A program made the translations under genes and the position numbers. A stretch of DNA of 64,000 nucleotides from Halichondria panicea (taxonomy: Eukaryota; Porifera; Demospongiae; Suberitida; Halichondriidae), in contig NC_087377.1 of the NCBI RefSeq assembly GCF_963675165.1, positions 5,518,042 to 5,582,041 on the forward strand, in the 5' to 3' direction. The notes beneath the pieces are model-generated. The model was given only the letters and a program-made list of their open reading frames with translations. It made no database searches and was not told the origin of the DNA. This document shows positions 14,918 to 47,451 of this stretch, one piece after another; position 1 is the first letter of the stretch, and each line of letters begins with the position of its first letter.

Positions 14918-17900
14918 CTCTCCCTGGTGTTGAAGTTATGGCCAGCACCTGTGTGATCATTACCAACTCACCCCAAACCTTCCACTGGGTTGGCTATGGG
15001 TTAAGGCTCACCATACCCCAGGGATCCCTGCCACCTGGTGTTGACCAGTGTCAACTAGATATCAAGGTCAGTGTAGCGGGACACTACCAGTTTCCCAACA
15101 ATTTCCAGTTGGTTAGTGGTGTCTTCTGGGTGCGACCTCATCCTTCGGGTCGATTCCAACAGCAGCTGACAGTCGAGATACAGCACTGTGCCAAGATGAG
15201 TAGCTCCACCAAGCTCTCATTTATGAGAGCACATTGCTCCCAAAAGAGTCTGCCCTACACATTCAAGCAGCTCGAGGAGCGTGGCTCGTTTACAGAGTAC
15301 AGCTTGTACGGTTGTTTGGGTGTGAATCACTTCAGTTCACTTGCAATAGCTGCAAAAGATGATGCTGATCTACAGTATATCGCCAGTCTACACTACCTAA
15401 AGGCTGACCCTCGGACCGTTGAGATTTATTTCACAATCAATATGGATGATGGAACACATAACGCTGTTAAGTGACAATTTATGGTGTTTTTTGTATGCCT
15501 ATAATTATATATAAGTATTATAATAATTATATATAAGTTCCACCTTTGAGCTCATGCATTTAATATAGGCTTCATGCACACTTTTTTTAGGAAACACGGA
15601 AGTACTTTGAGAATCTGGGGGCGAAAGAAAAGCTTAATATGGCAGTAGAGTTTGACGACTGTAATATTGCACTGGATATTCCTTTACCCAATGGTGTTGA
15701 AGTTGACGAATGGAGTCTAGTACCACTTGTTCTACCCAAGGTAATGCTTGCATGTAAATTTATTTTTAATGCTGATATTATTTGCAAATGTCACAGATAT
15801 TCAAGAAAAGGGTCGACTCATTCGAGCCAGGAAGAGCTGTTCCATCCACGAAGCTAGTAGCAACACTCTCAGAGAGTTGGGATTGTAAGGTACCAAGACG
15901 CTCACACCTGACAACATTGAAAGGAGCCAAGGAGCCTATTAATCAAATGCTGATTATGTTTGATCCAGTGGATCTTAAAAAAGGTATTTTGGTCTTTTCA
16001 ATAGTTGTGCTAACTGTTGAATGTTGAGGTATTTGTCTATTGCAATAATTATATACCTATGAATACTCGATCTATCATTCTCTCCTGTTCTCTTTAATTA
16101 CACCAATTCATTGCTTAATTCCTGAACTTTCACTGCACAAAAAAGAAACTTTAAGGTACAATTGCATTGCAGTGCTAGGATTGGCCGGGGAAAGCGCCAA
16201 AAGGGAATGGCTTTAACACTACATCTATTCCTTTACTGCATACATATATAGATCCTCTAGCCTCAGACCAGCACAAAAGATTATCGACATCAGATGAACA
16301 AATTGAAACTCTGTCAAAGCGTCTTAAGAATGATATCACTGTACAAGGTATGGTCTATCATTACAGTTCAGAATGAATGTTGCAAGCTGCGCTGTGCTAA
16401 TATGACTCTCGGTTAGTTATGCCTCGGTGCGCATGCGCAAGCGAGGTATACGGTAGTGTGTATGTGTGTCTGTGTGTGTGTGGATCTAGGATTCTTGAAA
16501 GGGGGGTTCCAGGGCTCTGAGCGGGTCAAGGACTGTTAAATTTACCTAAAAAAAAGGTCGTCACTTCTTCTAAACAGTGAGCATGCGCATTAACACACTG
16601 ACTTTTTCCTTAAAAAAAGGTCATCACTTTTCATGAAGCAGTCTGCATGCACTCGACTCGCTGGAGAAGAGTTTTTAGCCTTCATAGTCACTGAAACTGC
16701 ACAGACAAAGCTTCACAGGACTAACAAGGACTAAAGGTAAGTGAGAAGTGCATATGAAAGCTAGTAAGAAAGAAACACTTGCTAACTAGTTGCTTGAGCC
16801 TCCCACTCACTTCTTTCTCAAAGGGGGGTTCAATTGAACCCAAAGAACCCCCTCTGGATCTGCCACTGGTGTCTGTCTGTCTGCATGTGTACACTGCTAT
16901 ACAGCTGCTCAAGGATCAATGAAGTGCAAGTAAGAGTTTCTATAGGCTTCTAGTCACGTTTCCTTGGATTTTAATTCGTGGATTTGCAAAATAATGCTTC
17001 GTTCTCGAGTTATGCCTAGTTTTGCTTACTTGGAATGTCATTGCAGCCTTTTCAGAAGAGCATGCACGTAGCCAAACTTGTTTACCGAGGTGTTACTACT
17101 CTACTTAGTAGTTAGCTCTGCACTAGAACGCTAGCTATTGGTAGCTGCAAGGGTGAGAATAGAGCTGCAAAGCTCTGCTGATGGCCATTATAAATTTTAG
17201 ATTTAAACTTTTGGCATCCATCGTTACCCACTCTTTGCAGCAAAGTGCAAAAATGTTCATCAAAGCTTTATGTTATGTAGCTTTGGCATCTCCACCGAGG
17301 TATCAGCATGCTTTCATTTCAATTGTTTTGTGTTACGAATGTTTGTGACAATGAACGAATTTATAAATAAACCAATTAGTGGTCCAGGTCAGAGGTCAGA
17401 ATAGCCACGTGATCTAGCAAAACTTTGTAATTTTTTGTGGTGTGTTGTGACTCTGTTTGTGGTCAATTTTTTTTCTTTTTTTTGGCTGCCACCCTGGTCT
17501 GTTTTTGAGGATTAAAAATCCGTGAAACATAAGATCAATTTGGTGTGACCTAATAGGTGCATACTGGTAAGCAGACCAAGAGCCTTGATAGAACGCGCAT
17601 GGTTTTCTGCAAAGTTCTCTGCCCAACAACTGGTCTCCACACTTCTTTATAGATGTTAAGTCTCTTTCACTACCCGTAGTTGTGTTACTGCTGTCAGATA
17701 TAACTATAGACCTCTTGCAGACAAACGATCCAGCTATAGCTAATGAGGATTTGCTTTATTGAAATGTGGGCGTGGTTAATCTCTATAAGCGCATCTGGAT
17801 ACCGTATAGCGCGAAATGTTCGAGGGGCTTAATTTTCGCGGATTTCGTGGGTTAGAATTCTATACAAAAATTAAGTCCACGAAAATTGTTCTTTAATTAG

Positions 17901-20855
17901 AATTACCTGCTATCGTGCAAATATTTAAAGGCGTGGCTTCCGGGTAAGCAGCCATTCCGCGAACGTTGTGCAACGAAATGGTTTTTAGAGGCCAATCCAC
18001 GAAATATAAGTGCCTCGAAAATTTCGCGCTATACGGTAATAGGCGCATAGAGGCTTGCTTTTTTCCCTATAGGCGCATGCGCTTACTATACGCAGGGCCG
18101 TAAGAACCAGGGGGGCTGGGGGGGGCAACTACCCCCCCACTCTGAAAACCAGGGGGGCAGAGGTGCCCTGGTTTCAGACAGTGAAATGGGGTGGGGCCCC
18201 TCTGCAGAGTCCAACAGATCCACAGTCGTCCTGCATGATGATGATAATATTATATTTAGTGCCTTTTAAATGCATGTGGTTTGTTGCAACAACACTGTAC
18301 AGTAACTAAAGTAAGTTGATCCACATGCAGCTGAAATTTATATAGCTAGAGCTCACTATGGCACAATATTCATTCTTTTTCTCTTCAGTACCTCAGCCTG
18401 CCCATGATTAAGAAGGTAGGCGAACTAAGACCTTCTTCACGAAGCTCGATGAATTCACAGCGTCTATTCTTACTTTATATACACAAGTTGCTAACTGATT
18501 CGCTTGACTTTGAAGTCGTTGCTCGTGACTTTGCTTCCAAACACATGTCGAATAAACTATTTTGCTATAGCTCTCACATGCAGATTATTTCATTTATGTC
18601 TTTCTCCTGTTTATCTCTGAGAACATACAAAATGTAAAAAGTTCGCCTCCGGCAGGACGGGAGAGGGAATTTCCCCCTTCCGGACCCACCCCCTGCGTCG
18701 CAAGTAGAGGGGCCATTCCTTTTTCTGCCCCCCCACCTAAAAAATCTTCTTACGGCCCTGATACGGTATACCAACTCAACAATTTTTAGGTCTTACGCCA
18801 TAATTGTAATATTTTTTCTGCCGCTTATAAAAAGACGTGTTTGTGGTCGTCTATATATACTTTTTGGCCTATAATAATTATTACACGTATGCATATAATT
18901 ATAGCTGTATACTGGATGTATAACTGTCGCAACTGTAAATACAGAGACCAAAAATTGAACTGTAGATCCACCTGTGTACTAAAAGTTTGCACTCAAAACA
19001 AAGTGCGCCATTTTGCAAGCGTAATTCCTTTTTTCGAGTGCTGCATGTAATTACATCAACTATGATACTATCATTGGAACAAGCGAAGCAAGCATGCATG
19101 TATACCTAGTACGTTGTATCATGGACCGGCACAATAATTGTAACTATTAATGCTTTTAATTTGGTACTCTGATTTACCAACTTCCACGCAATAAGCCAGC
19201 TAATTTACACATCCAGCTCAGAAAGGAAACAAGGACTCCTGAGGTCACACACAAACAGCATGCAGCTAACTTGATTGCTATAATTATAAGCACTATAGGT
19301 TGTTTTTCGTCATAAAATTGTAGGTTATATCTACTGCTGCATGCATGTGTGTATCATTTTTGGCAGCAACATTGTAAGATGCTGAACTTTATCATGACAA
19401 TTATATACAATGGCTACACCTTCTAAGATATCAAGCAGCTAGCATTTATCATGCCAATATCGAGGCTATACACCTTCGAAGATATCGAGCATGCAACTAG
19501 TATTATCGTGCAGTTGCTCGATGCACGTCAAAATCATTATAGGCTTATAGCTACTTCTCTTATACATGCACACATCATAATTATAACCCAAAATCACAAT
19601 TCGCTCATGCTCGCCCCAAACATGACTGTATTATTTTGGGGGTTTTTAGTGGGAATCTCTTATAAGACATGCTCATGTTCATTGATTGGAATGCACCACT
19701 CCTCCTCCTTAGCAGTACATGGTTCCCAACATGGTGCCCCAGTGGCTGCTACTGCAAGTTTTCTACAGGGTGATCAATCTGGTGCACAACCGGAAGGTGA
19801 GTAGCACCCATGCACACATTAATTAATGGACTAAGTGTGACAATTAGGCTTTGTGCTATTTAATTGTTTAGTGCATGCTCAGTTTATTGTGGCGAAATAA
19901 TAATGTCTCTATTACGCATACAGATCCAATAGCCTCAAGTCATCGCAAAAGAGCTTTGGCATCAGATCAAGAAGTTGAAACTCCTTTAAAGTGTTGGAAA
20001 GAGGATATCGGTATATGCTTTATAATGAGTTTATAAATACATTGATTCAGTGAACGGCTTTGGCCACACACACTAAAAACGCACTTGTTTCTCAGGCACG
20101 CCAGCATGCTTACTCATTAAAAAAACGACGTATAATTGACCTTTGACATTTTTTATGCGATGATGCTAGTTTTTTTTATATAATTATGCTGATGCCCTGT
20201 CAAAAATGTGCATTCCCGCATCCGATTTTAAGGAAAAGGCCTGAAAAACAAGTGATTTAGCGTGGGAACTGTTAATCGTATACAGACACAAAGACATCCA
20301 GTTATGTATGAGTCCCAACTTTTATATACATTATACATATACAACACAACATAACTCAGGAGAGAAGGTATTATGGACAAATTGCAGCTTATTGATAGCC
20401 TAGGAATAATTATGGGGTGGAGCCCCCCTTCCTACGCCACTGTACATAATTATTATAAGTGCAGATGATTGACTGGCTATATAAGTACATCATACAATGC
20501 TTATGTTTATACAATAGCATTGTCATCAGAGGGGCATCCTAACAAAAGACCGTCCTCCGATCCCATTGTACTTACTGGAAAGGATGTTCAAATAATTTGT
20601 GTGACGTTGGTGAAAGCATGCAATAATTGGTTCAATTTGGGATTGGCTCTTGGAATGGACTATGACCAGTTGGAGTCTATCCAAGATCAATTCCGTGACA
20701 GTAGTGGTCGCCTAACAAAGATGATAGCCAAGCGTCTTTCAGTCACTGATTCAAAAAATCCAATGACATGGCCTTACATCTGTGAATGCCTAAGGAGCCC
20801 TACAGTAATGCGTTATGATGTAGCAGAAGCAATTGAAAGAGAAAAGGGACTATAA
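14918..20855 (+). CDS. ZU5 and Death domain protein, 5' end not found
   Basis: Seven exons by splice sites and phase: 14918-15465, 15591-15740, 15797-15983, 16252-16347, 19716-19796, 19924-20010 and 20518-20855. The first codes a ZU5 domain (SPQTFHWVGYGLRLTIPQGSL, later VSGVFWVRPHPSG), the fold found in UNC5, PIDD and ankyrins. Exons 2-3 continue with a conserved-looking block (EFDDCNIALDIPLPNG...LIMFDPVDLKK) that may stand where UPA sits in those proteins. Three short linker exons follow, of which 16252 and 19924 are related (DPLASDQHKR, DPIASSHRKR). The last exon is a Death domain (WFNLGLALGMDYDQLESIQDQF...WPYICECL) and ends in TAA. ATG at 14938 is not the start: the frame is open through the acceptor at 14917, so at least one upstream exon is missing. 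The protein is probably a cytoplasmic adaptor using Death-Death contacts. The 3.4-kb intron is full of transposons. Confidence 0.75.
16420..17302 (+). mobile_element. Repeat family B copy with nested insertion
   Basis: Left end TGCCTCGGTGCGCATGCGCA, right end CTCCACCGAGG, inverse of 4069-4627. The microsatellite region is interrupted by about 16483-16870, a TIR-type element whose right end is GGATCTGCCACTGG. It lies inside the intron between exons 4 and 5 of the ZU5-Death gene. Confidence 0.7.
17801..18037. mobile_element. 237-bp MITE, ACCGTATAGCG inverted ends
   Basis: Starts ACCGTATAGCGCGAAATGTT and ends AATTTCGCGCTATACGGT. The interior repeats CACGAAAT/ATTTCGTG motifs. The copy at 52026-52261 is nearly the same sequence in the other orientation. 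Confidence 0.8.
18093..18760. mobile_element. 668-bp TIR transposon, 5-bp target duplication
   Basis: Ends CAGGGCCGTAAGA and TCTTACGGCCCTG are exact inverses, with G- and C-runs just inside. It is flanked by ATACG at 18088-18092 and 18761-18765. No transposase was recognised. Confidence 0.75.
18766..19715. other. Intron sequence, nothing recognised
   Basis: Remaining part of the long intron of the ZU5-Death gene. AT-rich, without a convincing exon or repeat. Confidence 0.4.
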
Positions 20856-20928
20856 ATATAGCTATATAAATTATGGTAGAAATGAGCTATATAAAATTAA
20901 TTATGGTAGAAATGAATAGTTGTTTAAT

Positions 20929-21690
20929 AGGTGTTGGCAGATGCGCCAGATCCCAGAGCTCGTGCCCGCTTGCTCGCTTCCAGAGTGAAGGAGACGGGTG
21001 CCTGGCTAGATGTGCTGCCTATTTCTTTGCTAGGCCTAAGGATGGATGATAACACCATCAGAGTTGCTGTAGGCCTATGTCTTGGTGCCCCTCTATGCAG
21101 ACCCCATTCACTGTGGAGCTGGGGTGGACAGTTTGGGCACTCATGGGCTCAGCTGCCGTAGCAGTGAAGGTCGACACCATCGTCATGCGGCTTTGACCGT
21201 TATTGTGCATAGAACCCTCATCTCTGCAAAGATACCTGCACGCCTTGAACCATCAGGCCTACAACGGTCGGATGGGAAGCGCCCAGATGGCATCACCATG
21301 GTACCCTGGAAGTGTGGGAAGCTGCTGGTGTGGGACGCGACCTGCCCGGACACCTTTGCCCCATCATACACCATAAGTGCTACCTCGGAGGCAGGGCTTG
21401 TAGCTGCAGGAGCAGAAGAGAGGAAGGAGGCCAAATACACCAGCCTTGGTTCACTGCACTGCTTCACCCCACTAGCCATAGAGACTACAGGTGTTCTAGG
21501 GCCTAAGTCTAAGACTTGTGTTAAGGAATTAGGTGGGCGCGTTGCACGTGTCACGGGAGATCAGAAATCCTCCCATTACTTACTGCAAAGGCTGTCGGTC
21601 GCAGTACAGCCGGGAAATGCGGCCTCAGTGATGGGCACAATGGACTCGCGACCCTCTCCCTGGAACTTACGTTATTTATTGTTATACGAA
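20929..21690 (+). mobile_element. LINE reverse-transcriptase C-terminal fragment
   Basis: Two overlapping frames (20931-21161 and 21082-21753) encode the C-terminal part of an animal retroelement RT-like protein. The blocks include GLRMDDNTIRVAVGLCLGAPLC, then a frameshift near 21100-21130, then HGLSCRSSEGRHHRHAAL, KRPDGITMVPWKCGK, ATCPDTFAPSY, RKEAKYTSL and TGDQKSSHYLLQRLSVAVQ. It lies just past the stop of the Death exon and is GC-richer than its surroundings. It is truncated at the 5' side and frame-shifted. Confidence 0.75.
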
Positions 21691-21718
21691 TTACACCTGG
21701 TCTGTACACATAATATAG

Positions 21719-21967: not shown

Positions 21968-23438
21968 GTTTCTAGAACTACTGAGACCCAGCCCACATCC
22001 TTCCCTGCTTCCTTCCAAACCAGCCACACCTCCAGCTCTGTCTTTGCAGCAACCAGCCCCACCTCCATATCTGCTGCAGCAACCAGCCCCACCTTCGACG
22101 AAGAGTTCGTAGACTATCTGCTCTCCTCCACAGCCAGTGAGAACCTACTTACTGCTCCAGTGGCAAGAAAATTCGCTCCCTGTACTGTAGGATCATTTTC
22201 TCAATCAGTGGGTACAGTTTTTCAACGGCTGATGGACACATGTCAGCTCAGTACTACTGCCCAAGCCAGTGAGCCGAAAAAAGAAGATGCTGTGTCTTTG
22301 TCGCCTCCACCAGGTGTAGTAAATCAGTATGGATGCAAAGCTGTTAATGTTCAACGTTCTAATATTCTAGCCATAGCTCTAGGCTTTTTCAGACTTGCTA
22401 AGTTTATTGGAGCTCATAGTAACCCAGCTCAATCTTAGAATTCGGTGTGAATACCAGCTTCAGTGCCGGACGGGGGTGCTAGCTACATGTGTTAAATATC
22501 AGTATGCCAGTTGTAACAATGTTATGTTCTTATACAGCATGGACTACTGGGCTCACCATTGCTGAAAAAGTTATAAAGGTTAGTGTTTGTGTGTGCCTAA
22601 ATTTGTACGTCGAGCTATTTTTAATGGCATCAAACCTATATCAATTGTGTGAGTGCAATGCAGTATCTGTCCAGCCCCTAATACACCAGAGGATTTGCCA
22701 GGGTCAAAAAACTTGACATAGCTAGACTTGTAATTAAGTATTAATAACCTTACTATGATGTGTTTTCAGGCTTAGAAGTTAGCATTAAATTATATGTGTT
22801 ATTAACTATTAAACGCACTAAAATTTGTCGGTGTGGTTGAGCATTCCTTATAATTAGTTGATCAAAGATATGTGGGTAATGGGTAATGTTGCGATTCCAA
22901 GTATTAATGTAGGGAACACTCATGCAGCCCGAGCCCCTCAACGTTCTTTGTTCTTGTGTTGATTACATGTGGTGTTTAATTGTGACTGAAGTTTCATTCA
23001 ATACAGGAAATTCCCACCACATCTGTTGGAGAGGGATCACTTCGAGGGATTTCTGTGGGACAAGGGCAGGAACACACTACTGAACAAGCAGCTCCGTCAC
23101 ATGCCACAAAAGTAGATGCCCTACTATCAAGCAATGGATTGACGTACAAAGACGGGAATAGGGAGTGCAAAGATGACCATATATTACATATTTCAAGGCA
23201 GCTGGAACAATGGGAGCTAGTAGCAACGTGGCTAGGATTAACGGCAGCTGAGAGAGAAGCTATCAAGGGTAACAATCAGAGTATAGAAATGATGAGATAT
23301 AACACTCTTAAGAAATGGAAATCTAAGGCGCTACTCAGTGGAACAGCTACGTATCGAGTTCTACTACAAGCTCTGTTGGATTGTGGCTGCAATGACCAAG
23401 CAAAGCAAGTGTGCTCGCTACTCAAGGAATTGTATTAG
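21968..23438 (+). CDS. Death-domain protein 2, partial model
   Basis: The reliable part is the last exon, 23007-23438 (acceptor ATACAG at 23001-23006, stop TAG). It holds a Death domain with LEQWELVATWLGLTAAEREA followed by YNTLKKWKSKA and the typical last helix CNDQAKQVCSLLKEL. It joins in phase to 22538-22578 (WTTGLTIAEKVIK), and that to an exon ending at about 22418 (donor GTAACC, weak). The latter is open from about 21968 in one frame: a Ser/Thr/Pro/Ala-rich stretch, then DEEFVDYLLSSTASENLLTAP. A second frame there, starting at ATG 21894, is proline-rich but stops at 22109 and is probably a shadow. It is likely an adaptor in a death-fold signalling complex; the N-terminal half is uncertain. 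Confidence 0.6.
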
Positions 23439-23481
23439 CAAAAAAAGATTCTGAAATAGTGACAAAACTATAATTTAGTGT

Positions 23482-23508
23482 TGTTTGTTTGTTTGTTTGT
23501 TTGTATTT
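23482..23508. repeat. (GTTT)n microsatellite
   Basis: Six near-perfect GTTT units just after the second Death gene. Confidence 0.7.
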
Positions 23509-23638
23509 TGCTTCTTGTGTTGTTGATGATCTTTTTATCATAATTATTGATATAAGGAAAAGGGGCAGCTAGTGTAAAGGTAATAAACCCAGTAGATATA
23601 CTTTAATTAATATTAATTTCTTTCCCACTATATAATAG

Positions 23639-27960: not shown

Positions 27961-28807
27961 ACTTTTGCCATCGATCGTTTTTAGGTAGGTGAACTATCAA
28001 GTAGCTAAGGTGAACTACTAGTAGCGCTCAGGGCCACCGTATACATACATACACAGGTTTTCTGAGATGCGATGTAGTATTAGTTGCCTCGCGCTAAGGC
28101 GCTCGGCAATTACTGGTGATGTACATAAACATAAAATAACGTTATCCGAGATCAAAGGAATAGCAGTGCCAATATATGGCATATTGCACTGCATATGGTC
28201 AGTCTGTACATGGCATACAGAAAATTGACCTTTCAGTGGAGTGCCTCATCTCCTACCCAAACTGTCAAATCATTGCTTTTATAGTGCATGGTTATTCTGG
28301 GAAATTTACCAGACAGCATATGTATGGTTTTGATGCAGTCAATATTGTGATTCCAGCCACCAAAACGACCAAATTACCTCGTATCTACGCATTCTATGCA
28401 GGTTTCTAAGTGTAAAAAGTATGGCAATTCGTGCCACAAGCTGTTTATTGGCCCGGTAGTAGATTGTGATCAAGGGCCTTTCATATATAGCCATGTAATA
28501 ACTATTACGTACAGATGTACAATCAGTCTCAAATAGTACACATTTTTCAACTGTTTATGTATTATTATAGTGACTAAAATACAAACCTCTAGTAGCCTCT
28601 TCTATAATGGTTTTGAATGCCAACATACCATAAAGACAATTCTCTCAATTTTTATGTGCTATGCTATTTATGTACGTTCACCACGTAATTTAAATAACAA
28701 AATTGAAATTGAAAATTTGACTGTATGCAGGGACTGAAATTTCACGAAACATGCATGCAAGGGTATAGTCGATTATAATTATACTGTGTTTCATTCTATT
28801 CCTATAG
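27961..28807. other. Spacer before the first Roc-COR unit
   Basis: No convincing exon. The open frame at 28176-28409 has no recognisable domain. Upstream exons of the GTPase gene may lie here unseen. Confidence 0.4.
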
Positions 28808-30961
28808 AATTAAAGAATGAATTGTCAAGCTCAGCCTTCAGTGAAGCCATGAAGGCTGGATTTGTCCGTGTGAACATTACTAATCTACTGTTTTTCGGAA
28901 TGGCCGGCACTGGTAAAACTTCCACTAAGCATCTCCTTCTGGGACTGCCTCCTCCTCAAGATCGAAATAGCACTCCATTAGCTAGCACAGCAGAGAGGAT
29001 ATGTGTTTGATAAATTCGTGACGCTACAAAGCTGAAAATAGAAGCTCAAGAAGATCCCTCTAGAACATGGAAACCAGTATCTAGTGATGATCTACAACGC
29101 TTTGTTGCTGATGCTATTAACTCTCATGTAACCAGCTTAGATCCTAACTCTAAAGCATCTGCTGTCCCACAAGAACTCAGCATTGCTCTGAAGCAACTTG
29201 AAGCTAGCGATGAATCAAGTACGCCAGTTGATGCAACTTCTTCAACTTCAATAGCTAGTTCAACTAAACTATCAGTATCTGGAGCAAAAACAAAGCAAGA
29301 AAGGAAAACCAGTAATACTGTTTCGAATGTAATGGCGAAAATTCAAAAGTTTTCTGATGCTGATCGTACTGCTGTTCAAGAAAAGTTAGGATCTCATTGG
29401 ATCTACATAATCGATAGCGGTGGGCAACCACACTTTCATAATCTACTGCCACTCTTCATGCCCAAGATTTCTGTAGCTCTGTACACTCTTCGTCTCTCTG
29501 ACTGCCTTGACGATCATCCGCTGGTTAAATACTACAAGGACAATCAGCCACTTGGTGAAGGTTTTAAGTCACGTCTCTCAGTTTTGGATAACTTCAAGTA
29601 TCTCGTGCAGTCAATTCAATCTCACAGTGAAAACTGCAAGCTGGTATGCATTGGTACTCACAAAGACCGTCAATCTGAATGCAAGGAAACGTTGTTTGAC
29701 AAGAATAAAACTTTTTTAAACTTTGCGGAGAACGATTGTATTAGGAAGTTTATTTTTTATTTCAATTTGAGGAGAAAAGATGTCATATTTCCTATTGATT
29801 GCAAGCACTGCGATTCTAACAGTAAGGAAGTGGCAAAGACAATTCGTGAAATATCTCAAGAGCTGAATAATATTGAAATCTTGGTTCCTTTTTGGTGGTT
29901 TGTTTTGGAAATTATTGTCGAAAAGGTTTCCAACGATGAAAACAGAAAAGTTTTAAGCAAGACCGAATGTGTAGAAATTGCAAAAACGCTGCATAATTTT
30001 CACGAAGATGCACTTTGTGAAGCTTTAAAATTTTTCCATGAGCATCACATATTTCACTACTATCCTGCCATTCTTCCGAATGTGGTGTTTTGTGATACTC
30101 AAGTGCTTCTCGATAAAGTAACAGAACTTGTCGAGTATGCTGCGTACATCCAAGGTAGTGATGATCCAGCATAATTATTATGGAAAGTGGCTTAACCGAG
30201 GAATTATTACAATTGAACTTTTATCTGAGAATTTTGAAAAGCATTATGTTGATGGACTTTTTTCACCCCATGATCTCATTGAAATATTCCAGCACTTGCT
30301 GATAGTCACCCCATTTCGTTTGTTCTCACAAAAGCAAAACAAGCGTTTCTATATGCCATCACTTTTATCTTTGCTCCCACCAACTCAAGTCAATGACAAA
30401 CGAGCTGATTTGCTTAAGACCGGTTTAATCCCACTCGTTTTACACTTTAAAAGTAACTGGCAGTGCTGTGGAGTGTTTTGCTGTCTACAAGTGTACCTGA
30501 TTAAAGAATGTGAATGGGAAATTGAAATGGAAGATCACCAGCCAAGTAGAAACTTTGTACAATTGATTCATCGAGAGGAAGATTGTTTTATCACGATAAT
30601 TGACGGGTTTTCATTTCTTGAAGTTCATTCCAGCAATAATCGAAAAGACATGTTGTCGTTGATATATGAAAACGTTCACTCTGGTCTTCGTTTAGCATAC
30701 CAAGCCCTGAAATACTCGTATGAGGATCCTGAAGTTGCATTTTTGTGTCCCCATGAATTGCCCTCTACTGAAGCAAGTGCAAGTCCCCAAGTGCCCCACC
30801 ACCCAGCTCGTGTTCTGGCTAAAGGCACTTCTATGAGGTGTACTCAACGCAATAGGATGATGTATAAGTTAGGAAACGGTCACAAAGATTGGCTCTCGGT
30901 GTGTTGTCCATCTATGAGTGTAGCCAGTGCGGTATTGCAATCGGAAACTGACAAACTGAAA
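28808..30961 (+). pseudogene. Roc-COR-like GTPase, unit 1, broken
   Basis: One long exon (acceptor CCTATAG at 28801-28807, donor GTAATA at 30962). It has a P-loop GMAGTGKTS, a roughly 150-residue Ser/Thr-rich insert, the G3-like motif IIDSGGQPHFHNLLP and a G4-like CIGTHKD. A COR-like helical region follows (WWFVLEIIVEKV, ALKFFHEHHIFHYYPAIL, EGLFSPHDLIEIF-like LFSPHDLIEIFQHLLIVTP), and a Cys-rich tail (CPHELP, HPARVLAKGTSMRC). The set P-loop, DxGGQ, THKD and COR order is that of ROCO-type GTPases. Two consecutive in-frame stops (TGA TAA at 29008-29013) sit between P-loop and insert, and the frame shifts by one near 30165. Both sides of each break keep coding sense, so this is a young pseudogene or a gene with assembly errors. 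The end phase (1) would allow splicing to the Ig exon at 32278. Confidence 0.75.
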
Positions 30962-31059
30962 GGTAATACTTATGTTCGTTAATAATTTTTCACCCATCCA
31001 GAATTCTCACAGCATTCTCAATACAGTACATAATTATACTGTCATAAATGAATATTATA

Positions 31060-32040: not shown

Positions 32041-32277
32041 TGGATATGCTGTACATGTAGCTTATTCATTCACCTTTATCAACAGATTTTCTTAGAAATA
32101 TTCCAATCACAACATTTTTACATTAATTTTAAATATAGGAGTATAACTATACTCCCTATAGACTGGATGCACTGTATGCGTGACTTCAATTCTCACAAGC
32201 AGTATATATATACAATCCCTTCATTTCTTGCCATGCTCTGAGTATTTAGACTTGGTGTATCTTGTTTTACATTGCAG

Positions 32278-35200
32278 GGTCAACATTTGTCTTTTTGATT
32301 CAACCCAAAGGCGTTTACTGTAAACCTGGAGATGAAGCTGAATTTACAGTATCGACATCACCATCTGATAGATCTATATATACATATCAGTGGTTTTTTG
32401 ACGATCAAGCAATATCACTTCCCGAATATGATGAACAAAACTTACTCCCTGAATATGAAGGACAAAAATCTGAACGTCTCCTGATATTAAAAGTCCTTCC
32501 TAAGCATAAAGGAGTTTATTCGTGTATTGCTGAAGATGTATCTGGTACTCGGATCACCTCACAACCTGCAACACTCACTGCAGGTACGTACTATATTTAG
32601 TTCCCTACTTATTTTGTACCTTTAATGAATGATATGCTGACATAGTGGACATGTGTGATACTACTTTTTACACAGAGGGAGAGACAATTGAAAATCAAGA
32701 ATTGCAATTCATAGGGAAGATTCTGGAAAATTCTGCAATTGACTTCAGAAAATATGGGATTAAGACAGTGGACCTACTCAATGGCGTGGGTGGTGTAACT
32801 TACGAAGAGATGGAGTTTGTAATGAAACTGAACCCAAAGACTCAAGTGTTGTCATTAAACCTAAAGCAGGAAATCACATCAAGTAAGAATTATTCATCTC
32901 AGTGATCACTCGACTAGAACTATAATGTGTTTATTTGGTATACCTGTATTCTTCTATTGTACACATAGGACTGAAAGAGGAGCAACTCTATGACGAAGCC
33001 ATGAAGAGTGAAGGGAAGGTCTCCCTTACGTACACCAAAATCCTTGCCCTGGGTCCAGGTCAGGTTGGAAAGTCTACTTTTATTAACAGATTGTTGGGGA
33101 AAATGGAAGGAAACATTCAAACATCTCTTCCAGAAACACAACCTCAGTCTAGTACAGGTTTTTCAGAGTAACAGAAGCTTGTATACAGTGTTCAACAATA
33201 ACTGGTGCTGTAAGCGGTAAAAAATGGTGTGTTGTCAAAGACGAGCTGTGCGATCAACTTAGTGGTTTAATGTCACTAATATTTAATAAGCCATCTCAAG
33301 GCCCAAAGCACAAAATAACTAAACTGTCAAAAAAAGGAATCCCAAAAACAATCATAGCTAACAAGGTTGAAGTTGTAGAAAAAGAATCAGTGGTAGATGC
33401 TTTTCCATTGCAAGAGGAAGAGAAACATGACTATACATTATCCAATGAAGACATTGAAATTCATTCTGTGGAGGCACTGCCAGATTCTAGATCTAGTTCT
33501 ACTCCTGAGTCAAGTCATGATTCATTGATTCCCCAAGAATCAGATATTAACAAAACCATTAAGGAGTTCCAAGAACTAAGGGAGGAACGGAGCGGTAGAC
33601 TAGATCGAGATAGCATGAATTTTGAAATGCTTTTTACTGTAGCTGATGTTGGTGGGCAACCAGCATTTCTGGAAATGCTACCATCCTTAACTCTAGGACC
33701 AGCTCTATACCTTGTGTTTATGAAACTTAAACAAGACCTAACTTTCAGAAGCAGAGCAGAGTTTAAACCCAAGGACTCGAGTACCAAATATTTCGAGAAT
33801 TACTCGTACACTTCAGAAGAAGTCATTTTTACAGCACTTTCAAGCATAGCTTGCTTTGGGCACTCAGATGAGCAAGTGGAAAAATATGTTAAGCCAGCAT
33901 CAGATGAGAAAAAGCGAAAAGGTTCTGTAGTGTTACTTGTGGGAACTTTTCTTGATGAGATTCAAAATGATCTGCAACGAAATCTTGACAAGATAAATGG
34001 ACAGCTAGAGGAACGGCTTAAAAACACAGCATTTTTTGAAGAAGGACTTGTCCACCGTATCAAATTGTCAAAAGATGATAGCTTATTGGTGAATAACGTA
34101 AGTGCCAAAGAAGGTGAAATAGAAAAGCATAGAGACCTTTTAGAAAAGATACCTAAAGATTACTTTCGAGAATATCAAATCCCAGCACAATGGTTAATGC
34201 TCAGTATTTGTCTTAAGCTTCTTGCTAGAAATCAAAACAAGTATCACATTTCCTTTGATGATTGCGTCAAGTTGGGGAAGCATATTGGTATGGACGAAGA
34301 TATGGTGAGTGTTGCCTTGCAATTCCTACACAAATACATTGGGCTTATAATGTATTTTCCTCATCACGAAAACCTTCAGAAAATTGTAATATGTAATCCA
34401 CAAGTAGTATTTTCAACTATTAGTGAACTAATCTTCAACATTTACGATCACAACAAGAATCAAGTTAACCAAGCAAAGTGTGACCACTTTGTGCAAACTG
34501 GTTGCTTTTCACCTAAAGATATCCAACTAGAAACCGTGAATCAAGAGAAGAATAAACTCCTTTCTATTGAAACTTTAGTTGATCTGTTAGTGTACCTTCA
34601 CATTGCTGCTAAAGTGCCCCTATCTTCTAATAGAGATACTCTTGAGTACTTTCTGCCAGCGGTTCTTCAAACTGCTGAAAGAGATATGGTTCAAAGGAGG
34701 AAAAAAGATATAAATGAGGAATTGCTTCCCGAACCAATCTGCATTCGATTTAAAACGGGATATCTACCTTTAGGCTTTGTATGTGCATTGAGTGCAAATC
34801 TTATTGCTGAGAATAAGTTTGATCTACTCATTAGTGAAAGCAAATGTTACAAGAATAGGATTCTATTTCGATTTGATGGTAAATTCGATATCACTGTGAT
34901 TTCTTGTCCTAGGTATTGCGAGTTTCGTGTTTTGAGGCACTCACCAGGCAACACTGAATTTTGGAGTGAGGATTGTTGTCCTCTAATTAAGGAAATTGTA
35001 TGTACAGCTGCGAATAAAGTTATCCAATCTATGCAACATGGTTTGCGTTGGATAGGTACAGATTCTGAAATGTATAATCTAGCTTTCCATTGTCGAAGCA
35101 AAGTACACTCTAAGGCAGAATTTGGACAGGAATCTCTCGCTATATTCTGCCATTCTGACCAAGACACACGTGTTCCTAAGGCTAAATGCACCCACTGTAA

Positions 35201-36126
35201 TACGGCTATTGATCCACTGCCCCCTGAAATGAGTGTTTGGTTTGGTGAGGTAGGTCATTCATGCACCATCATATATAGTATTAGTATCGTTATAATTATG
35301 TGTTATGTCTTACAGCATCCAAGTATTTCGCTGAAAATCGAAAAACAACCTGCTCGAAAAGGAAATGTCGTAACTATAATTGCAAATGGATTACGACCAC
35401 TAACGTATGAATGGTTTTTAGGGAAGAAAAAGCTTTGTGATATTAATGACGAGGACTATGATGGTTACACAACAGATAAGCTTGTGATTAAGAAGGACCT
35501 TTTTTTAACTGAAGGTGTATTAAAGTGCAAAGTGAAAGACAAGTCAACTGATTGTGTTGCAATTGAATCTGATGAGCTTGGTAAGCATGCATTATGTCTT
35601 GTGTATGTGGTAATCCTTCCTGTTTTGAACAGATCTCTTTGAAGAGGAGCTCAGAAATACTGGGAAGTTGCAAGAAGAAGAGATCGGCAAAATAAAGGGT
35701 ATAATTAATAAACATAAACAGTGTAATTATTTGTATTATTGCTGGTAAAAAACCTTCGCGAATGACCCAAATCAACAGAAAATTTGACTCTTGTGTATCT
35801 AACTATTGCGTTCTGGCAAGGATCGTGTGCCATACACCATAGATAAATAGAGCATGCATAAAAATATTATTATATGCATGGTCATACATACCATAATAAT
35901 AATTATTGTTCAAAGGTAGCATAATTGTGTTTGATACTTGCAAAACATTGTAAACATTATGGTTATTGTTGTATAGATAATGGATTTAAAAGTGTTAAAG
36001 ATTTGCAACGTGCCCAGCAGCTGGACAAGCTAAACTTTTTGAACACGGCTGAAAAGATAAGGATGGAATGCAGCGGACTCTTTGCTTCTGTTCAGAAAAG
36101 TAATGCTGCGATTTCTGGTAAGTAAA
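32278..36126 (+). CDS. Ig - Roc-COR GTPase - Ig protein, unit 2
   Basis: Exons 32278-32583, 32676-32882, 32969-35249, 35316-35580, 35633-35698 and 35977-36117 (or running to TAA at 36124-36126). All joints are phase 1 except the 66-base in-frame intron at 35250-35315. Exon 1 is an Ig-like domain (TYQWFF, KGVYSCIAED). Exon 2 is a short unknown block (VDLLNGVGGVTYEEM). Exon 3 has P-loop GPGQVGKST, a long acidic/Ser-rich insert, VADVGGQPAFLEMLP (G3), LLVGTFLDE at the G4 position, and a COR-like part with PAQWLMLSICLKLLAR, ending in a Cys pair CTHC. Exon 4 is a second Ig-like domain (TYEWFLGKKKL, VLKCKVKD). The first Ig cysteine position is not Cys in either Ig domain (EFTVSTS, VTIIANG), which fits a cytosolic protein. 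The frame drops one base in a T-run near 33160, just after the P-loop; this is a sequencing error or a real lesion. Upstream exons and the start are not seen. Confidence 0.75.
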
Positions 36127-38736: not shown

Positions 38737-38775
<39 letters not shown>

Positions 38776-41063: not shown

Positions 41064-43515
41064 ATGTCTCGAAACATGTCCAGGCATAATGGTAATTACA
41101 TACTTCACACGTACACGTACATGTACATGCAGACCTGTGTGTATGGAAGTATGTATATCTTCGATGGCCTATTAATATCATCTTAGAAGCAACTTGATGT
41201 ACAGTATGCTTTTACTATGTAAAAATGAGCAATTATGACCAATTTGTGAGTAAGAGCATCATTTTGTGATGATTACCTACTCTAAGCTCACTAGTCTGAC
41301 AACTCCCATTTAATAAGGCAGGCATTTCACGGGTTTCCCCTTGTAGAATAAGATGTGTGATCGAATTGTATACCAGCTGATCTCGTCTCTACATACATGT
41401 TAGCAAGCTTGTTGAAGATTCTGTATTCATTTAGCAAAATTTTACGGGTGTTCATATGTACATGTATCTGTAGTGAGAGTTGTGTCACATTGTGTCAATC
41501 TTACTGTGTCTCTATCTAGCTGATCACCCTTTAGTTGCTATACAAACAATGAAGTGACTGAAGGCATGTTGTTTAGTGTACAGACACTTTGTACGCGCAC
41601 ACACACACACTCAGGTGTCAGCTGTGATGCTTGCGGGAAGGGAGGGTTCTCTGGAAATCGTTACAAATGCCTTGTGTGCTACGACTTTGACCTCTGTGGT
41701 GACTGCTATAGTTCTGGAGAGACAGGAACCGGCAAACACAGCAGCAGCCACCCAATGCAGTGTATACTCACTAAAGTCGATGCTGGTAAGTATGACCCCA
41801 CTGTTCAGAGCAGGGTCCGCAGACTAATACATGTAGGGCGTCGAAGAGCAGGGCTTGATCGTTACGTTGGCATGTTTCGGGAGAGTGGACAGGCTCAGGA
41901 CAATGTTCACCCCATCACTGAGCTTCTACAACATGTATCACAGCTCTCAAGTAAGTAGCAGTAGCAATGTGGTCCATTGCCTAGTATTATAGTATTATAT
42001 AATATGGAAGTAGCAAGCCAACGAAAGGGTGGTGTCATTGGGGAAAGGCAAGTGTGACTTACAACTATATGAAGTGTAGAGGTACACCCCAAGATATTGA
42101 CCATACTGACCATGTTGCCTATTGACACAACCACCCTTTGTCGCTGCATATGTATTAATAAACTGTTGCCAGCCATGGCAGAGTAATTGTACCTTTCAAC
42201 CCTCCAGTATTTTTATGTTAGTTGTCTTTTAACCTTTTGTGACGGCTCCAATACTTCTTTGCTGACTTTGCTGTGATTCTAGTACCAGTGAAACCTGTTT
42301 GTATCGGGAAGCTAAACACATCATTACACTATGTCTTACTATACCCTACGCCCGCCCGACAGCTTAAGGTTAGGATATAGTGTTTCGCCCACGCAAGAAA
42401 GTGGGCGTTCCCGCTCAGCATCTGTACAGCAATTTAGGTAAAGCTAGCTACAAAACTTCTGCGTCAGTTTTCTACCTTCTTAGCTGATGATCATGTCCTA
42501 TTTAAGAATGATCTAATTAAACAAGGTATGGGGCAGGGCCAGATGTAAACATTTCATAGAGAATCGAGACTCTGCAGCTGCAGAGCGCTCACTTTACTGT
42601 TCATTTTTGGATCATTTTTGCGTATTGATAGTACAAAAGAGCAGATATGACAGAACAAGTATCACAATAAAGAAATATCTAAACATCTGGCTCTAAGGTA
42701 AGTATAGATCTTGTCATAGAGCTCTTGTATGTCACTCCATGGCCTCTGTAGCTCTAGAAAACTGACGCCAAAATAAGGAGTGTCCACCACAGATCTCTGA
42801 TGGCTATTCTACTCTTCATGTACTAAAGACAAACAGTTTTAGCTTGAATATGAGTATTGATACAAACTCTTCATTACTTTCAATGGCCATGAAATAAATA
42901 AAAACATATGCCTACCAGGCTGTGGCAGCCTAGTGCTCCAATACTAACGTAGTTTCCACTCCTCTGGCTATGACAAATATTATAGCACCACACCTCGGCA
43001 GAGAGTTTAGCACTTCAGTTAAATGTACCTAAGTTCAGTATAATAAATTATTATGTTAATTAGACATGTACATGTACCGTAAATGCATGTACGTTATGGT
43101 GGAAATTTTATCCGAAAATTCTAACTGCGAAATTATTATGCGCAATAGGTTCTACAGTTGTACGTCACTATTCTGAGCTGTATATACGAATATTTAAAAT
43201 TAATTGAGCAGTTTATGAATACAAAAATTTGCACCAACGAAAATTACCCACTGTTATAGTATTTCCACCATAAAACTTATGTTATTCACACGCACACGCA
43301 CACGCACACACACAAACCTTCCTCCAGGTAGTGGCAGTCATGGTGGGCAACGGCTTGCTCCCACTGATGTTCCTCCTCACATACAACAGTTGCTTGACCA
43401 GCAGGAAAGACAAGCTCTCGAAAGGCGATCTCCCCTAAGGAGACCAATGTATCGCAAGATAACCTCAGGGGCAGGTGGACTGCTGACATCAGATACTCAC
43501 AGTTTAGCTGGTTAG
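41064..43515 (+). CDS. KCMF1-like ZZ-type zinc-finger protein, short form
   Basis: Three exons: 41064-41091 (MSRNMSRHN), 41615-41950 and 43328-43515 (TAG), predicting 183 residues. Exon 2 opens with a complete ZZ zinc finger (CDACGKGGFSGNRYKCLVC, then DLCGDCYSSG, then a His pair in SSSHPMQC), very close to vertebrate KCMF1, a RING-less E3-type protein whose ZZ domain reads N-degrons. The following VRRLIHVGRRRAGL and PITELLQHVSQLS match the part of KCMF1 beyond its second zinc-finger region. The Di19-type finger that normally sits between them is absent, so the protein is about half the usual length. Exon 3 has a Gln-rich helix (QQLLDQQERQALERR), as in KCMF1. Both acceptors follow CA repeats. 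The C-terminus is taken from the first stop; a further donor at 43489 is possible. Confidence 0.8.
43094..43274. repeat. Inverted repeat, TTATGGTGGAAA ends
   Basis: TTATGGTGGAAATTTTATCC at 43094 and GTATTTCCACCATAA at 43274 form inverted ends. The right side contains GCACCAACGAAAATTACCCA, related to the ACCGTATAGCG family. It lies in the KCMF1-like intron next to the acceptor. Confidence 0.5.
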
Positions 43516-43624
43516 CCTCATAAGAATGCAGTTACATGAAGGTACATGTAGCTGCTTCCATACACTAATACAGTAACAGTGAGCAATAACATGTAAAAGA
43601 TGGTGGTAGCTTTTGCATTGGTCA

Positions 43625-43815
43625 TAATTGTGCCTCGGTGCGCATGCGCAAGCGAGGTATACGGTAGTGTGTGTGTGTGTGTGTGAGTTTGCATGCAGAA
43701 AATTAATGTTTGTCATGATGTATAAAAGCAAGAGAACTCTTGATAAAAAGCAGCTTTATGTTATGTATAGCTTTGGCATCTCCACCGAGGCATCAGCACC
43801 CGTGGTGCTTTCATT
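43625..43815 (+). mobile_element. Repeat family B, internally deleted copy
   Basis: Keeps both ends: TGCCTCGGTGCGCATGCGCA at 43631 and CTCCACCGAGGCATCAGC ending near 43797, with only a GT microsatellite and short spacer between. Useful for defining the element's two termini. Confidence 0.7.
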
Positions 43816-44023
43816 TTGGCATCGATTGTTTTAACAACAATCGTGGTCGATCATTTCCTATATACTCTTTGAGTTTTCCTGTGGTTACAGATATTAATTG
43901 TAGGCAGTAAACTTTTAACGAGAACCCTGGCGTGGCCCGACCTTCAGTTAGAAAGGAGCTCGGGTTGCAAGCTTAGATTTGTTTTGCTGCATTTATATAT
44001 GATATGATATGATACTACTTAAT

Positions 44024-44275
44024 TAAGATGGGAGCGTCTTACTACACGGATTCTGTATCGTCTAGCTATATGTACAAATCGTGCCATATATGTATATATG
44101 TGCTAAGTTATAACATTACTCAATGATATTCACATGCATAAATGCGTTATATCAGCCGCACATGCATGTATAGAGCACTTAGTACATTGCAAACAAATAT
44201 AAATGTATAGTTAAGACGACAGTGAATCCGCAATTGATATACTGCATATATAGTAAGACGCTCCATCCCCTCATC
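44024..44275. repeat. Inverted repeat around 250 bases
   Basis: GATGGGAGCGTCTTACT near 44028 and AGTAAGACGCTCCATC near 44250-44270 are inverses; the interior is AT-rich with no coding sense. Confidence 0.6.
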
Positions 44276-44364
44276 TACTCCTGTTATTAAACATGTATAA
44301 ATTTATACATCATAAGGAGGGCCTGCCCTTTTAATAACCTCTCCCTCCCCCTAATTTACAGCAG

Positions 44365-47300
44365 TACATAATGTGCTGCTACTGTGAGTTCTCCACATAG
44401 CGATCAATCTGGTGCACAGCCAGAATGTGAGTATAATAGCAACCATAATTATAATTGTTATTATCTCTAAGTGTGCCATAGAAATAGATGATTTATAATT
44501 ATACAGATCATATAACCTCACACCGTTGCAAAAGACCTCTTACATCAGACGAAGAAGTTGAAATCCCTCCAAAGCGTCGGATTAAGGATATCGGTGTGTT
44601 TTATTATGCCTCAGTGCATGTGTGTTTGTGTGTCTGTGGAGATTGCTATAATGAGTAAGAGCTTCAATCATAATTATATAGATAGAACACAAGAGGAAAC
44701 GACCGGGCCTGCCTGTGTAAACGGTTGAAACACTCCACGGCCAGTGGCTTATTCAGCTAGGGGCTCAGGGTGCTCAAGCACGCCCCTATAGGCTAAAAAT
44801 TATTACTGTAACTTAATTACTGTTTTTCTGGGAGCTATTCATAAACGGTGAGCGGCACTAGCTATTCAGAATGAAAGCATAGGAGGTCCGACATGCATGC
44901 ATGCACGAATCACTATAAGTTCAGTGCATTTGGCCTGCATGGACGTTATCACGCAACCGCAATGACATCAATGCACTGAATTTGTAGTGATTCATGCACA
45001 CATGTCGGATCTCCTCTGGATTGAAAGCTAAAGCTAATCCAGAGGAGGAATGCCAGTGTCAAAAGGTCACTAATTAAAACACCACGTGGCCCTATGTTTT
45101 ACATGTAAAACTGAGTTTACCCTCGCGCCCCTGAGTTTATACACCATCAATAGCTTCATCCTCTTTATAATCACAACAGAAATCGGTTGAGCTATCGCGC
45201 CCCAGAGGAATCAGCTTGAGAGAGGAGATCCAGGATTTAATTGCAACCTTTGACCTTTTATTGCATTCTTCAAAACCACAAGATATGGAAATTAGCCTTC
45301 CGTGGCTAGGGTATAAATTGTGATGTACTGGCTTGCTGCACTGGATAGGTATAGTAAGCTTTCCAAGCAGGCAAATAAAGAACAGAAGCGCTAAGCTGCT
45401 ATATGCAGCAAAGATCAAGAACCCAAAACAAATCCTTTTGACCCTATTGACCCTGGCGTTCCTCCTCTGCGTTTAATCAGACTCTGACGTCTAATGATCG
45501 ATTGAGACCACACCTTAAAAACGTTGCATGCGCAGGAAAATAGAGCGTGGCTTCAGGTGCCTGGGTGTATAAAATTTGTGCGCGCGCTCTCAGCTACTGC
45601 ATTTCCCAGAAACGCCATGCACTGCTCCACGATATGATGTAGTGATCGCGAATATATATTTAACGGTTTCTAGCTCTTCTATCCACTAGCGATCACCCAG
45701 GGGCTGGGAGGTACTGTAGAGAAGTAATTTTATACTACTGACTATAGCTCTAAGTCTGTTATTAACCTGAGGATTATTTGAAACATAGCCTGTTTGCTTT
45801 GTGTGTTTGTGGAAAAGGGTCGATACAATAGAAAGCTAGAATTGTGTCTGGTTTGCCTCCGTTAGCTGACTCAAACTCTGGGATCCTACTCCAGGAGCCA
45901 TACTTCTCTGCATGAGACTCTAGGCTTCTTTCCTGTGATCCTGTCCACAGTGCATATATCTATCTATGTACCACTAAAAGTAAAACCCTGTTCTCAAATG
46001 TTTCAGCATCATGCATGATCATGCAGTTAGATGGGCGTGGTCCGCCTCCAAAAGGCCACGCCTATCTAGCTTCCAGTCTGGTTTAGCTCCTGAGTTGCTG
46101 TGCTATAGACAGTTACATGCAGTTAAGTCATACGTACATGATATTCATCACTACATGCACTGCATTATATCACTCTTCTGGTTTCTTAATAATCATGTCA
46201 CGTCACCAGCCGAGGGTTTGCACTTTAGTGCTCTAGTCTTTACTCTCAGGTTGTTGAATCACTCTGTGTCAACTTTTCTCTTTCCCTGCGGCTGTGAAAC
46301 CAAAACAGCAAAGGACATTGCTTGACTTGGTTACTATGTATTTAGCTAAGTGCTATATAGAATGTCTTCATGCTATGGATAAGCTGTATACTGTTCATAA
46401 ACGTAATTTGCAGTATAGTCCATCATAATTTTTACACACTACGGGCCTTGACCTCCCACGACTTTTATTAAGCAGTCCTCTGCTCAGCTTATTATAGCAC
46501 AGTTTTTAAAAATGACACAACTGTATTAGCGTGAAACAATTCGCATTATAGGGTGTGGCTAGATTATAGTCCGCATGCATGCTCAGTACCTGTCTTTTGT
46601 TATACAATGTGGCTAAGAGAATTAACCTAGCTCTAAATGGTCGACTAAGCCACTCAGCCACTATCACCAAACAGATAAATACTATATACCAGAAGGAGCA
46701 CGCTGCAAACCACAGTCACCTAAATCAACTGGAAATGCCGCAAAAGTGGGCGTGGCCCCAACAATCGCTTGTGTGACGCACGCGCATCAGCACCTATACC
46801 TATATACTTGTTTTTCTAGACCTGCCAACTGTACTACTATATAGCGCGGCAATGAGTGAGACACCGAGAGTGAGATACAAAGATAATTAATTTGTTCAAG
46901 GTCAGGAGGGTGCATGAGTACCCTCTGATACCTACTAGATGCGCCCGTGGGGTATGCTATTAAATTAATTACCGCTCAAGTTTTTATACTTGATCATAAG
47001 TAATCATGATTTAATGACTGCAGGTGCACAAAATGCATCAGGAGGGCCAACAGAAAGTAGTGAGAAGGGAAAGAGTGAACCTAAACTTGTTACCAAGACT
47101 GAGGAGACAACACAATCTGGTCGAAAACGCGGAAGAGACCCACCTGCTAGCAACCAAAAGAGAGCAAAAGCGATACGGCCAGGAAAGATCGAAGGTGATC
47201 AAGTTCTCATGAAGATTGGCCGCAAGCTTGGAGACGAGTGGATGGATGTTGGTGTGGCATTAGGAATGGAGTACATGGACCTTAAAAACACAATTGAAAG

Positions 47301-47451
47301 TAACCCCAAAATACCGCACCACCTCAAACCAATGGAAATGTTTCAAAAGTGGAAAAATAAAGCTGGTGACTCTTTCACGTATGCAACACTGGCCACAGCA
47401 CTGGAAGAAGCTGACCTCGATACATGCGCACAAACAAACTGTTATGAATAA
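44365..47451 (+). CDS. Death-domain protein 3, partial, paralogue of the ZU5-Death gene
   Basis: Three pieces match the 3' exons of the 14.9-kb gene. 44365-44426 is a shortened copy of the exon at 19716 and has an in-frame stop, so it is dead or skipped. 44507-44593 is exactly 87 bases like 19924-20010 and reads DHITSHRCKRPLTSDEEVEI. 47024-47451 is the Death exon (acceptor CTGCAG, stop TAA). The Death exon has a long Lys/Arg-rich lead (SGRKRGRDPPASNQKRAK), which looks like a bipartite nuclear localisation signal. The Death domain follows (MKIGRKLGDEWMDVGVALGM, then MEMFQKWKNKAGDSFTYATL). No ZU5 exon is visible upstream. It is either a 5'-truncated duplicate or a gene whose first exons I could not find. 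The basic lead is unlike the other two Death genes. Confidence 0.65.
44880..45016. repeat. Palindromic repeat, about 137 bases
   Basis: AGGAGGTCCGACATGCATGC and its near inverse ending near 45016; the arms also share CGAATCACTATAAGTTCAGTGCA-like sequence. It lies in the intron of Death gene 3. Confidence 0.6.
45017..47023. other. Long intron or spacer with weak open frames
   Basis: No convincing exon on the plus strand. On the minus strand an open frame (about 45475-45137) has a hydrophobic segment followed by a Cys-containing tail, but no ATG or splice context that I trust. Confidence 0.35.

Follow-up and report, generated by a model that had tools for sequence, protein, structure and literature searches.

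The stretch analysed here, hereafter the window, consists of 64,000 nucleotides from the sponge Halichondria panicea (C1:5518042-5582041, C1 being one of the 39 contigs of this 131-Mb genome); loci fetched from the same genome for comparison carry L numbers. Its Death, ZU5, Roc-COR and immunoglobulin-like (Ig) domains are best understood as members and remains of two large multi-exon signalling families that both end in a Death domain, one built as ZU5-...-Death and the other as (Ig)-Roc-COR-(Ig)-Death, a reading to which we give a probability of about 0.8. The initial annotation described three Death-domain genes and two units of Roc-COR GTPase. Its domains and their density stand and its gene list has to be redrawn: two of the Death genes read as the last exons of a ZU5 gene (gene A) and of a Roc-COR-Ig gene (gene C), the third is a fragment, and the frames of both GTPase units (Roc-COR 1, and Roc-COR 2 in gene C) are broken.

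From immunoglobulin-like domain to Death in a predicted single gene

The second family is most readily understood from a duplicate. Positions 32271-58378 of the window correspond to a diverged copy some 128 kb away (C1:5422263 to at least 5435000), in blocks of 80.9-93.9% nucleotide identity with insertions. In this copy (L002 and L003, C1:5422270 to 5430.7 kb) seven exons join into 1,206 open codons in the order Ig, X, Roc-COR, Ig, short charged exon, basic linker and Death-C, with GT-AG borders and matched phases at all six introns, five being of phase 1 and one of phase 0. Gene C has the same seven exons and the same GT-AG sites in the window:

32278-32583, plus strand: Ig domain 1 exon, phase 1-1 (Ig_3, 33.9 bits over the frame 32250-32597, cut-off 30)
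32676-32882, plus strand: exon X, between Ig and Roc, phase 1-1; conserved in six fetched relatives (L002, L006, L007, L008, L011, L012), no Pfam match
32969-35249, plus strand: Roc-COR exon, one base missing at 33168 relative to all three relatives compared
35316-35580, plus strand: Ig domain 2 exon, the second Ig_3 stretch in the spliced relative
35633-35698, plus strand: short charged exon, coiled-coil-like (a label given by eye)
44507-44593, plus strand: basic linker exon, phase 1-1 (nuclear localisation signal, NLS, pattern tested on the L003 counterpart)
47024-47451, plus strand: last exon, Death-C (Pfam Death)

Two stretches of Ig_3 and a Death match above cut-off are found in the spliced duplicate protein; COR-A scores 31.9 bits there, short of the 35.3 required. 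In the window, the Death-C frame (46969-47448) reaches 34.3 bits for Pfam Death (cut-off 22.6) and COR-A in 33153-35639, placed after Roc as in ROCO proteins, reaches 37.0 bits in the genome search and 33.4 on the open reading frame; the window piece of Ig domain 2 alone gives no Pfam Ig match. Both Roc-COR units carry a P-loop of the form GxxxxGK(S/T), and Pfam Roc is weak in them (15.0-16.0 bits, cut-off 27; 15.6 for the frame 29014-30171 of Roc-COR 1). The domain calls made at the outset are therefore borne out by Pfam for Death (34.3 and 25.3 bits), COR-A and Ig, and are weak by Pfam alone for ZU5, Roc and the first Death.

By their open duplicate, Ig, Roc-COR, Ig and Death-C are to be read as exons of one gene. 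That Death and Roc-COR belong together, as first proposed, holds in this very form, as one gene in the open duplicate and as a single 860-aa frame on C8, in which a Death domain (26.2 bits) continues into a Roc-COR that resembles Roc-COR 1 at 40% (E 5e-74). The proposal that adaptor and switch are distinct genes lying side by side, for its part, dissolves into exons of one gene and into parts whose closest relatives lie elsewhere: on C1 and C10 for Roc-COR 2, on C1 and C2 for Death-C (Death 3), and for Roc-COR 1 mostly elsewhere on C1, also on C5, C6, C15 and C16.

The base missing at 33168, shortly after the P-loop, makes the chain of gene C stop after 237 codons. Since two identical bases follow one another at this place, the lesion may be a true one or an assembly error. 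The Roc-COR exon is otherwise open, with a ratio of nonsynonymous to synonymous substitution rates (dN/dS) of 0.37-0.39 against three relatives, which may predate the lesion. For Death-C the comparison of the window with L003 gives a dN/dS of 2.32 (25 nonsynonymous, 3 synonymous); we do not claim diversifying selection, as a rough binomial value is 0.059 and dN/dS is 0.48-0.56 in the three remaining comparisons with the window.

One intron of gene C has grown from 2.9 to 8.8 kb in the window copy. Inside it lies a ZZ zinc-finger frame (41524-41955, plus strand; 46.8 bits, cut-off 21.4), presumably KCMF1-like, which has no counterpart by blastn in the duplicate stretch L003. The minus strand of L007 (C10:400001-410000) carries, between Roc-COR-Ig and Death, a tandem series of five 63-aa frames that are nearly identical and spaced 167 bp apart, each with a basic linker exon.

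A ZU5 gene with a Death exon related to those of Roc-COR genes

The first family is represented by gene A, predicted as six exons:

14887-15465, plus strand: ZU5 exon (Pfam ZU5), with HFS at 15328-15336; its 5' limit is that of the open frame, not a mapped acceptor
15591-15740, plus strand: exon 2, at the position of UPA; GT-AG, phase 0, homologous to L010
15797-15983, plus strand: exon 3, at the position of UPA; GT-AG, end phase 1, homologous to L010
16252-16347, plus strand: linker exon 1, basic, bipartite-NLS-like, phase 1-1
19924-20010, plus strand: linker exon 2, basic, phase 1-1; outside the bipartite pattern in its strict form
20518-20855, plus strand: last exon, Death-B, stop at 20853-20855; Death assigned through its family

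Joined, they yield 479 codons of which the stop is the last, with GT-AG at all five introns and phases 0, 0, 1, 1 and 1. These matched phases left no free choice, because most exon edges are set by homologous exons in other loci, and the gene as predicted is spliceable and open.

The identity of its two ends comes largely from relatives. The ZU5 frame (14887-15471) scores 19.7 bits with Pfam ZU5, below the cut-off of 21; a relative on C14, 78% like the window exon, scores 26.5 and that of L020 26.8. Towards the end of the domain the window carries HFS, a putative cleavage site; among five aligned ZU5 members HFS is found in three and FS in all. Against solved structures, ZU5 gave a ZO-1 chain, which we take to be the ZU5 of ZO-1, as the first of six matches (E 0.59), the remaining five looking unrelated, and its profile gave that chain as sole match (E 1.6); neither was retained. 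The Death-B frame (20469-20852) matches Pfam Death weakly (11.9-12.8 bits), and in its family eight of 13 members match at E up to 1, the best at 1.1e-7. The family profile finds six solved structures at E up to 1, namely two PIDD and three RIPK1 Death domains and one RAP80, with E values of 0.039-0.93, none significant and PIDD the best (0.039).

The closest ZU5 relatives lie on C14 and C8, and against L010 (C14) the exon shows 82% amino acid identity with a dN/dS of 0.27; the Death exon downstream in L010 is of a type other than Death-B. The Death-B exon of the window is 95% identical in amino acids to a copy at C1:5396059, and positions 19617-20930 match that locus in nucleotide blocks of 86-93%. 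Gene A looks chimeric because its ZU5 half is closest to C14 genes and its Death-B matches the C1:5396059 copy.

Death exons concentrated behind Roc-COR and ZU5 across the genome

Domain counts come from searches of this genome with Pfam profiles and with parts of the window. They returned at least 148 matches for Pfam Death (best 150 of 503 candidates scored), at least 150 for the first Death exon (best 150 of 475), 60 for COR-A (70 of 70), at least 57 for Roc-COR 2 (best 55 of 351), at least 100 for Roc-COR 1 (best 107 of 237), 62 for the window ZU5 exon and 27 for Pfam ZU5 (80 of 80 in both cases). A list of 166 Roc-COR loci was drawn from 54 of the 60 COR-A rows, 24 of the 57 for Roc-COR 2 and 88 of the 100 for Roc-COR 1, and 52 of the 102 rows of a further search extended it to 218; omitted Roc-COR rows were mainly parts of loci already counted, a few being short or weak, and row tallies were made by hand. 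The 73 ZU5 loci combine 56 of 62 rows for the window exon with 17 of 27 for Pfam ZU5; the 300 Death exons combine 148 of 148 (Pfam), 150 of 150 (first Death exon) and 10 of 12 (Death 3), overlaps merged.

Death, COR and ZU5 domains, then, are none of them rare in this genome, and the large expansion that had been supposed is confirmed, with at least 218 Roc-COR loci, at least 300 Death exons and 73 ZU5 loci, next to 33 caspase-family matches. Listed Death exons are concentrated in the first 4 kb downstream of Roc-COR (9.5-10.5 per kb, against 0.8-2.0 beyond 10 kb downstream) and of ZU5 (5.0 per kb, against 0.5-1.5 beyond 10 kb), and the simplest view of a Death exon found that close behind is that it ends the gene in question. 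In the window the distances from Roc-COR to the downstream Death exceed 11 kb and fall outside this peak because of insertions and decay.

The density is beyond chance. Only four regions, the window included, are listed with at least two Roc-COR and at least two Death per 33-kb stretch, and at least 10 of the 166 Roc-COR loci have another Roc-COR and two or more Death exons within 33 kb; such counts are low because only the best-scoring Death candidates entered the lists. The window belongs to an array (C1:5.38-5.57 Mb) of at least 15 Death exons and three Roc-COR loci.

One Death module behind different switches

Death-B is not confined to ZU5 genes. Five relatives of Roc-COR 1 (L014 and L016-L019) share the order Roc-COR, linker, Death-B, with a phase-1 linker acceptor in all five and a phase-1 Roc-COR donor in four, the search pattern having missed L018; most of the junctions read are of phase 1. 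L024 and L025 each combine another Roc-COR with an Ig-like exon and Death-B, the Ig of L024 being below the Pfam cut-off, that of L025 without Pfam match, and the Roc of L025 at 14.4 bits. The ZU5 genes L020 and L021 also finish in Death-B, and the tail of L020 is the same Death-B tail as in the Roc-COR genes. When linkers were scanned for the bipartite NLS pattern, six of ten carried it, a figure attained by none of 2000 shuffles (mean 0.2), these linkers being hand-picked and partly related. On sequence grounds, a Death module can thus be recognised, made of a basic linker exon followed by a Death exon with phase-1 introns, which stands behind ZU5 and behind unrelated classes of Roc-COR.

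This module appears to have moved between genes by recombination or gene conversion. L016 and L025 share 98% DNA identity in their Death-B cores, against 86-88% between L016 and its siblings L014, L017 and L019, and the Roc-COR proteins of the same two loci are only 20% alike over their best 241 residues. Their sole DNA match is a tract of 653 nt at 90% that begins some 95 nt upstream of the Death exon and continues until L025 ends. Such a shared tract would result from recombination or gene conversion in the intron; an assembly artefact in the placement of the Death exon might also account for it. We put forward tentatively, and would sooner bet against it than for it, that a nuclear-localising linker and Death exon between phase-1 introns form a mobile output cassette that recombination passes around among switches unrelated to one another (ZU5, Ig-Roc-COR-Ig and several Roc-COR classes), the part renewed being the signalling end rather than the sensing end.

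Gene conversion of Death exons that were already in place, with no new exon inserted, would agree with the two-family reading as well, and we see its chances as somewhat short of even. In its favour, the tract of homology is short and local (on the right it is truncated where L025 stops), and the genes read have fitting intron phases. Gene conversion accounts less well for gene A, whose ZU5 half is closest to C14 genes, five of them with a downstream Death only 36-41% like Death-B, and whose second linker and Death-B exon are 86-97% identical in DNA to one C1 locus: a join fits this better.

Decay next to an open gene

The remaining pieces of the window are in various states of ruin:

28738-30979, plus strand: Roc-COR 1 pseudogene, adjacent stops at 29008-29013, net frameshift within 30170-30199 relative to two relatives
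22184-23588, plus strand: Death 2 fragment, 3' part of a C8-type Death/Roc-COR gene, main blocks 73-87% nt identity to L015
22986-23435, plus strand: Death-A exon (Pfam Death 25.3 bits, cut-off 22.6)
5036-5130, plus strand: relic of the first 30 or so codons of a Death-B exon (blastn, 75-84% nt identity to L019, L024, L020, L017 and L014)

Roc-COR 1 is a dead gene: in 23 relatives at 76-87% identity the frame is open over 663 to 1,032 aa, one of these relatives having a single stop within the match. Death 2 is a fragment of a gene of the C8 type, for positions 22905-23430 are 87% identical in DNA to the Death part of the 860-aa frame described above; its own frame ends where Roc-COR would start, as does a second Death exon at the C8 locus. 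The relic near 5 kb, already noticed in the initial annotation, was rightly assigned to the same Death family, since it resembles the start of the Death-B exon in five loci.

One may accordingly ask whether the whole region is a junkyard, gene A and gene C included, made of non-functional duplicates. We regard this as arguable, if leaning towards the negative, and it is compatible with membership in the two families. The two stops and the frameshift of Roc-COR 1, the one-base deletion of gene C, the relic, the dN/dS of 0.78 of the Death-A fragment and the reverse-transcriptase pieces nearby all speak for it; the open frame of gene A with the constraint on its ZU5 exon against L010 speaks against it, as does, with the reservation on timing made above, the Roc-COR of gene C, open but for one base.

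Beside the cluster, frames at 6243-6851, 11148-11606 and 9281-9760 (minus strand) and at 52-705 (plus strand) match DUF5641, DUF1759 and reverse transcriptase, the one at 9281 below cut-off, and appear to be retroelement remains. At L001 a 304-aa frame (2326-3237, plus strand), without convincing Pfam match, lies upstream of three Death exons and is possibly the N-terminal module of another type of Death gene.

What weighs against the two-family reading

Several observations have to be set against our proposal. The exons were joined by splice signals, by open frames and by the edges of homologous exons, and the 3.6-kb intron between the linkers of gene A is predicted and unproven. In spliced gene A Pfam gives no Death at E up to 1, and it gives no UPA for exons 2 and 3, singly or spliced. 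L020 and L021 carry RFS in place of HFS. An AlphaFold model of the Death-B exon alone had a predicted local distance difference test score of 56, a low confidence, and was not used. Death is also raised upstream of Roc-COR, to a lesser extent (3.0 per kb at 0-4 kb). No listed Death lies within 8 kb of 162 of the 218 Roc-COR loci, so that the same-gene reading is not carried to the majority of them. Finally, neither a listed Roc-COR nor a listed ZU5 lies within 6 kb of 103 of the 150 best Death-B matches. The lists are incomplete, since among three such loci fetched a Roc-COR is present in L024 and L025, though none showed in L023; even so, a large share stays unassigned.

Strand agreement must be discarded as proof of single genes. 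Where the nearest Death lies within 8 kb it shares the strand of Roc-COR in 46 of 46 cases (of 166 loci) and that of ZU5 in 28 of 28 (of 73), or 74 of 74 pairs, and in 56 of 56 on the longer list of 218, 42 of them downstream. This is uninformative, because Roc-COR neighbours 3-100 kb apart agree in strand in 275 of 290 pairs.

That the region is a functional cluster, in which independent genes for Death adaptors and Roc-COR switches make products that cooperate, is improbable in spite of its real domains on one strand over 33 kb, its rank among the four dense regions and the surrounding array, given that the open duplicate has Death and Roc-COR as exons of one gene, that both window Roc-COR frames are broken, that the closest relatives of the parts are scattered to different places, and that strand-coherent arrays are the rule in this genome.

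A proposed mechanism

For the two families as we read them, analogy suggests switch-controlled Death-domain signalling. In the Roc-COR proteins, a GTP-dependent dimer of the N-terminal module would control exposure and clustering of the Death domain; in the ZU5 proteins, the N-terminal module, which may cut itself at HFS as PIDD does, would control both as well. The exposed Death domain would recruit Death partners and finally caspases, and the basic linker may direct the protein to the nucleus. Exon shuffling would renew the pairing of a switch with a Death surface, the window then displaying birth, with the gene A chimera, beside decay.

Large Death-domain expansions in early animals are known (PMC8195603), and the origin of new combinations of switch and Death is less clear. 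Here a possible donor, recipient and breakpoint may be read within one genome, the same Death exon standing behind different GTPases and ZU5. There is also a warning in this, namely that a Death exon close to a Roc-COR exon in raw sequence may mean no more than one gene.

Comparison with known systems

DAPK1 belongs to the ROCO group and carries an N-terminal kinase and ankyrin repeats. The 30 window pieces scanned gave no match to a DAPK1-type kinase or ankyrin part, the exons upstream of the first Ig being undefined; gene C differs further by the Ig domains around its Roc-COR and by its large family. As passages of PMC6337361 describe, Roc-COR dimerises and DAPK1 couples it to Death, and the likeness lies in this C-terminal Death after Roc-COR in one protein, seen here in the open relative of gene C.

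Gene A recalls the ZU5-UPA-Death arrangement of PIDD1 and UNC5, with a ZU5 carrying HFS, two exons at the position of UPA, unrecognised as such, and then Death. It differs by two inserted basic linker exons, and no leucine-rich repeat (LRR) or receptor part appeared in the pieces scanned. Excerpts of PMC3210808 give HFS as the self-cleavage motif of PIDD and Nup98, and place self-cutting at the ZU5 end, at HFS in PIDD and at SFS in CARD8 and NLRP1.

Amphimedon has 357 proteins that join Death-superfamily domains to TRADD-N, according to parts of PMC8195603. What it shares with Halichondria is that, in an animal, modules of the Death superfamily have expanded greatly and into many architectures; the difference is that its Death is N-terminal, before TRADD-N. 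In that article 'roco' occurs once, in the reference list. Sections of a paper on Dysidea NLR proteins (PMC12909245) provide related context. In the open-licence literature searched, mostly by listing, we met neither an Ig-Roc-COR-Ig-Death protein nor a shuffled Death module on ROCO genes. Parallels come from extracts of PMC11378527, where Trichoplax ROCO proteins include Death domains and where the brown algal ROCO family, candidate immune receptors, diversified through phase-symmetric exons. In the algae, LRR exons of phase 2 are shuffled, whereas in this sponge it would be a Death module of phase 1.

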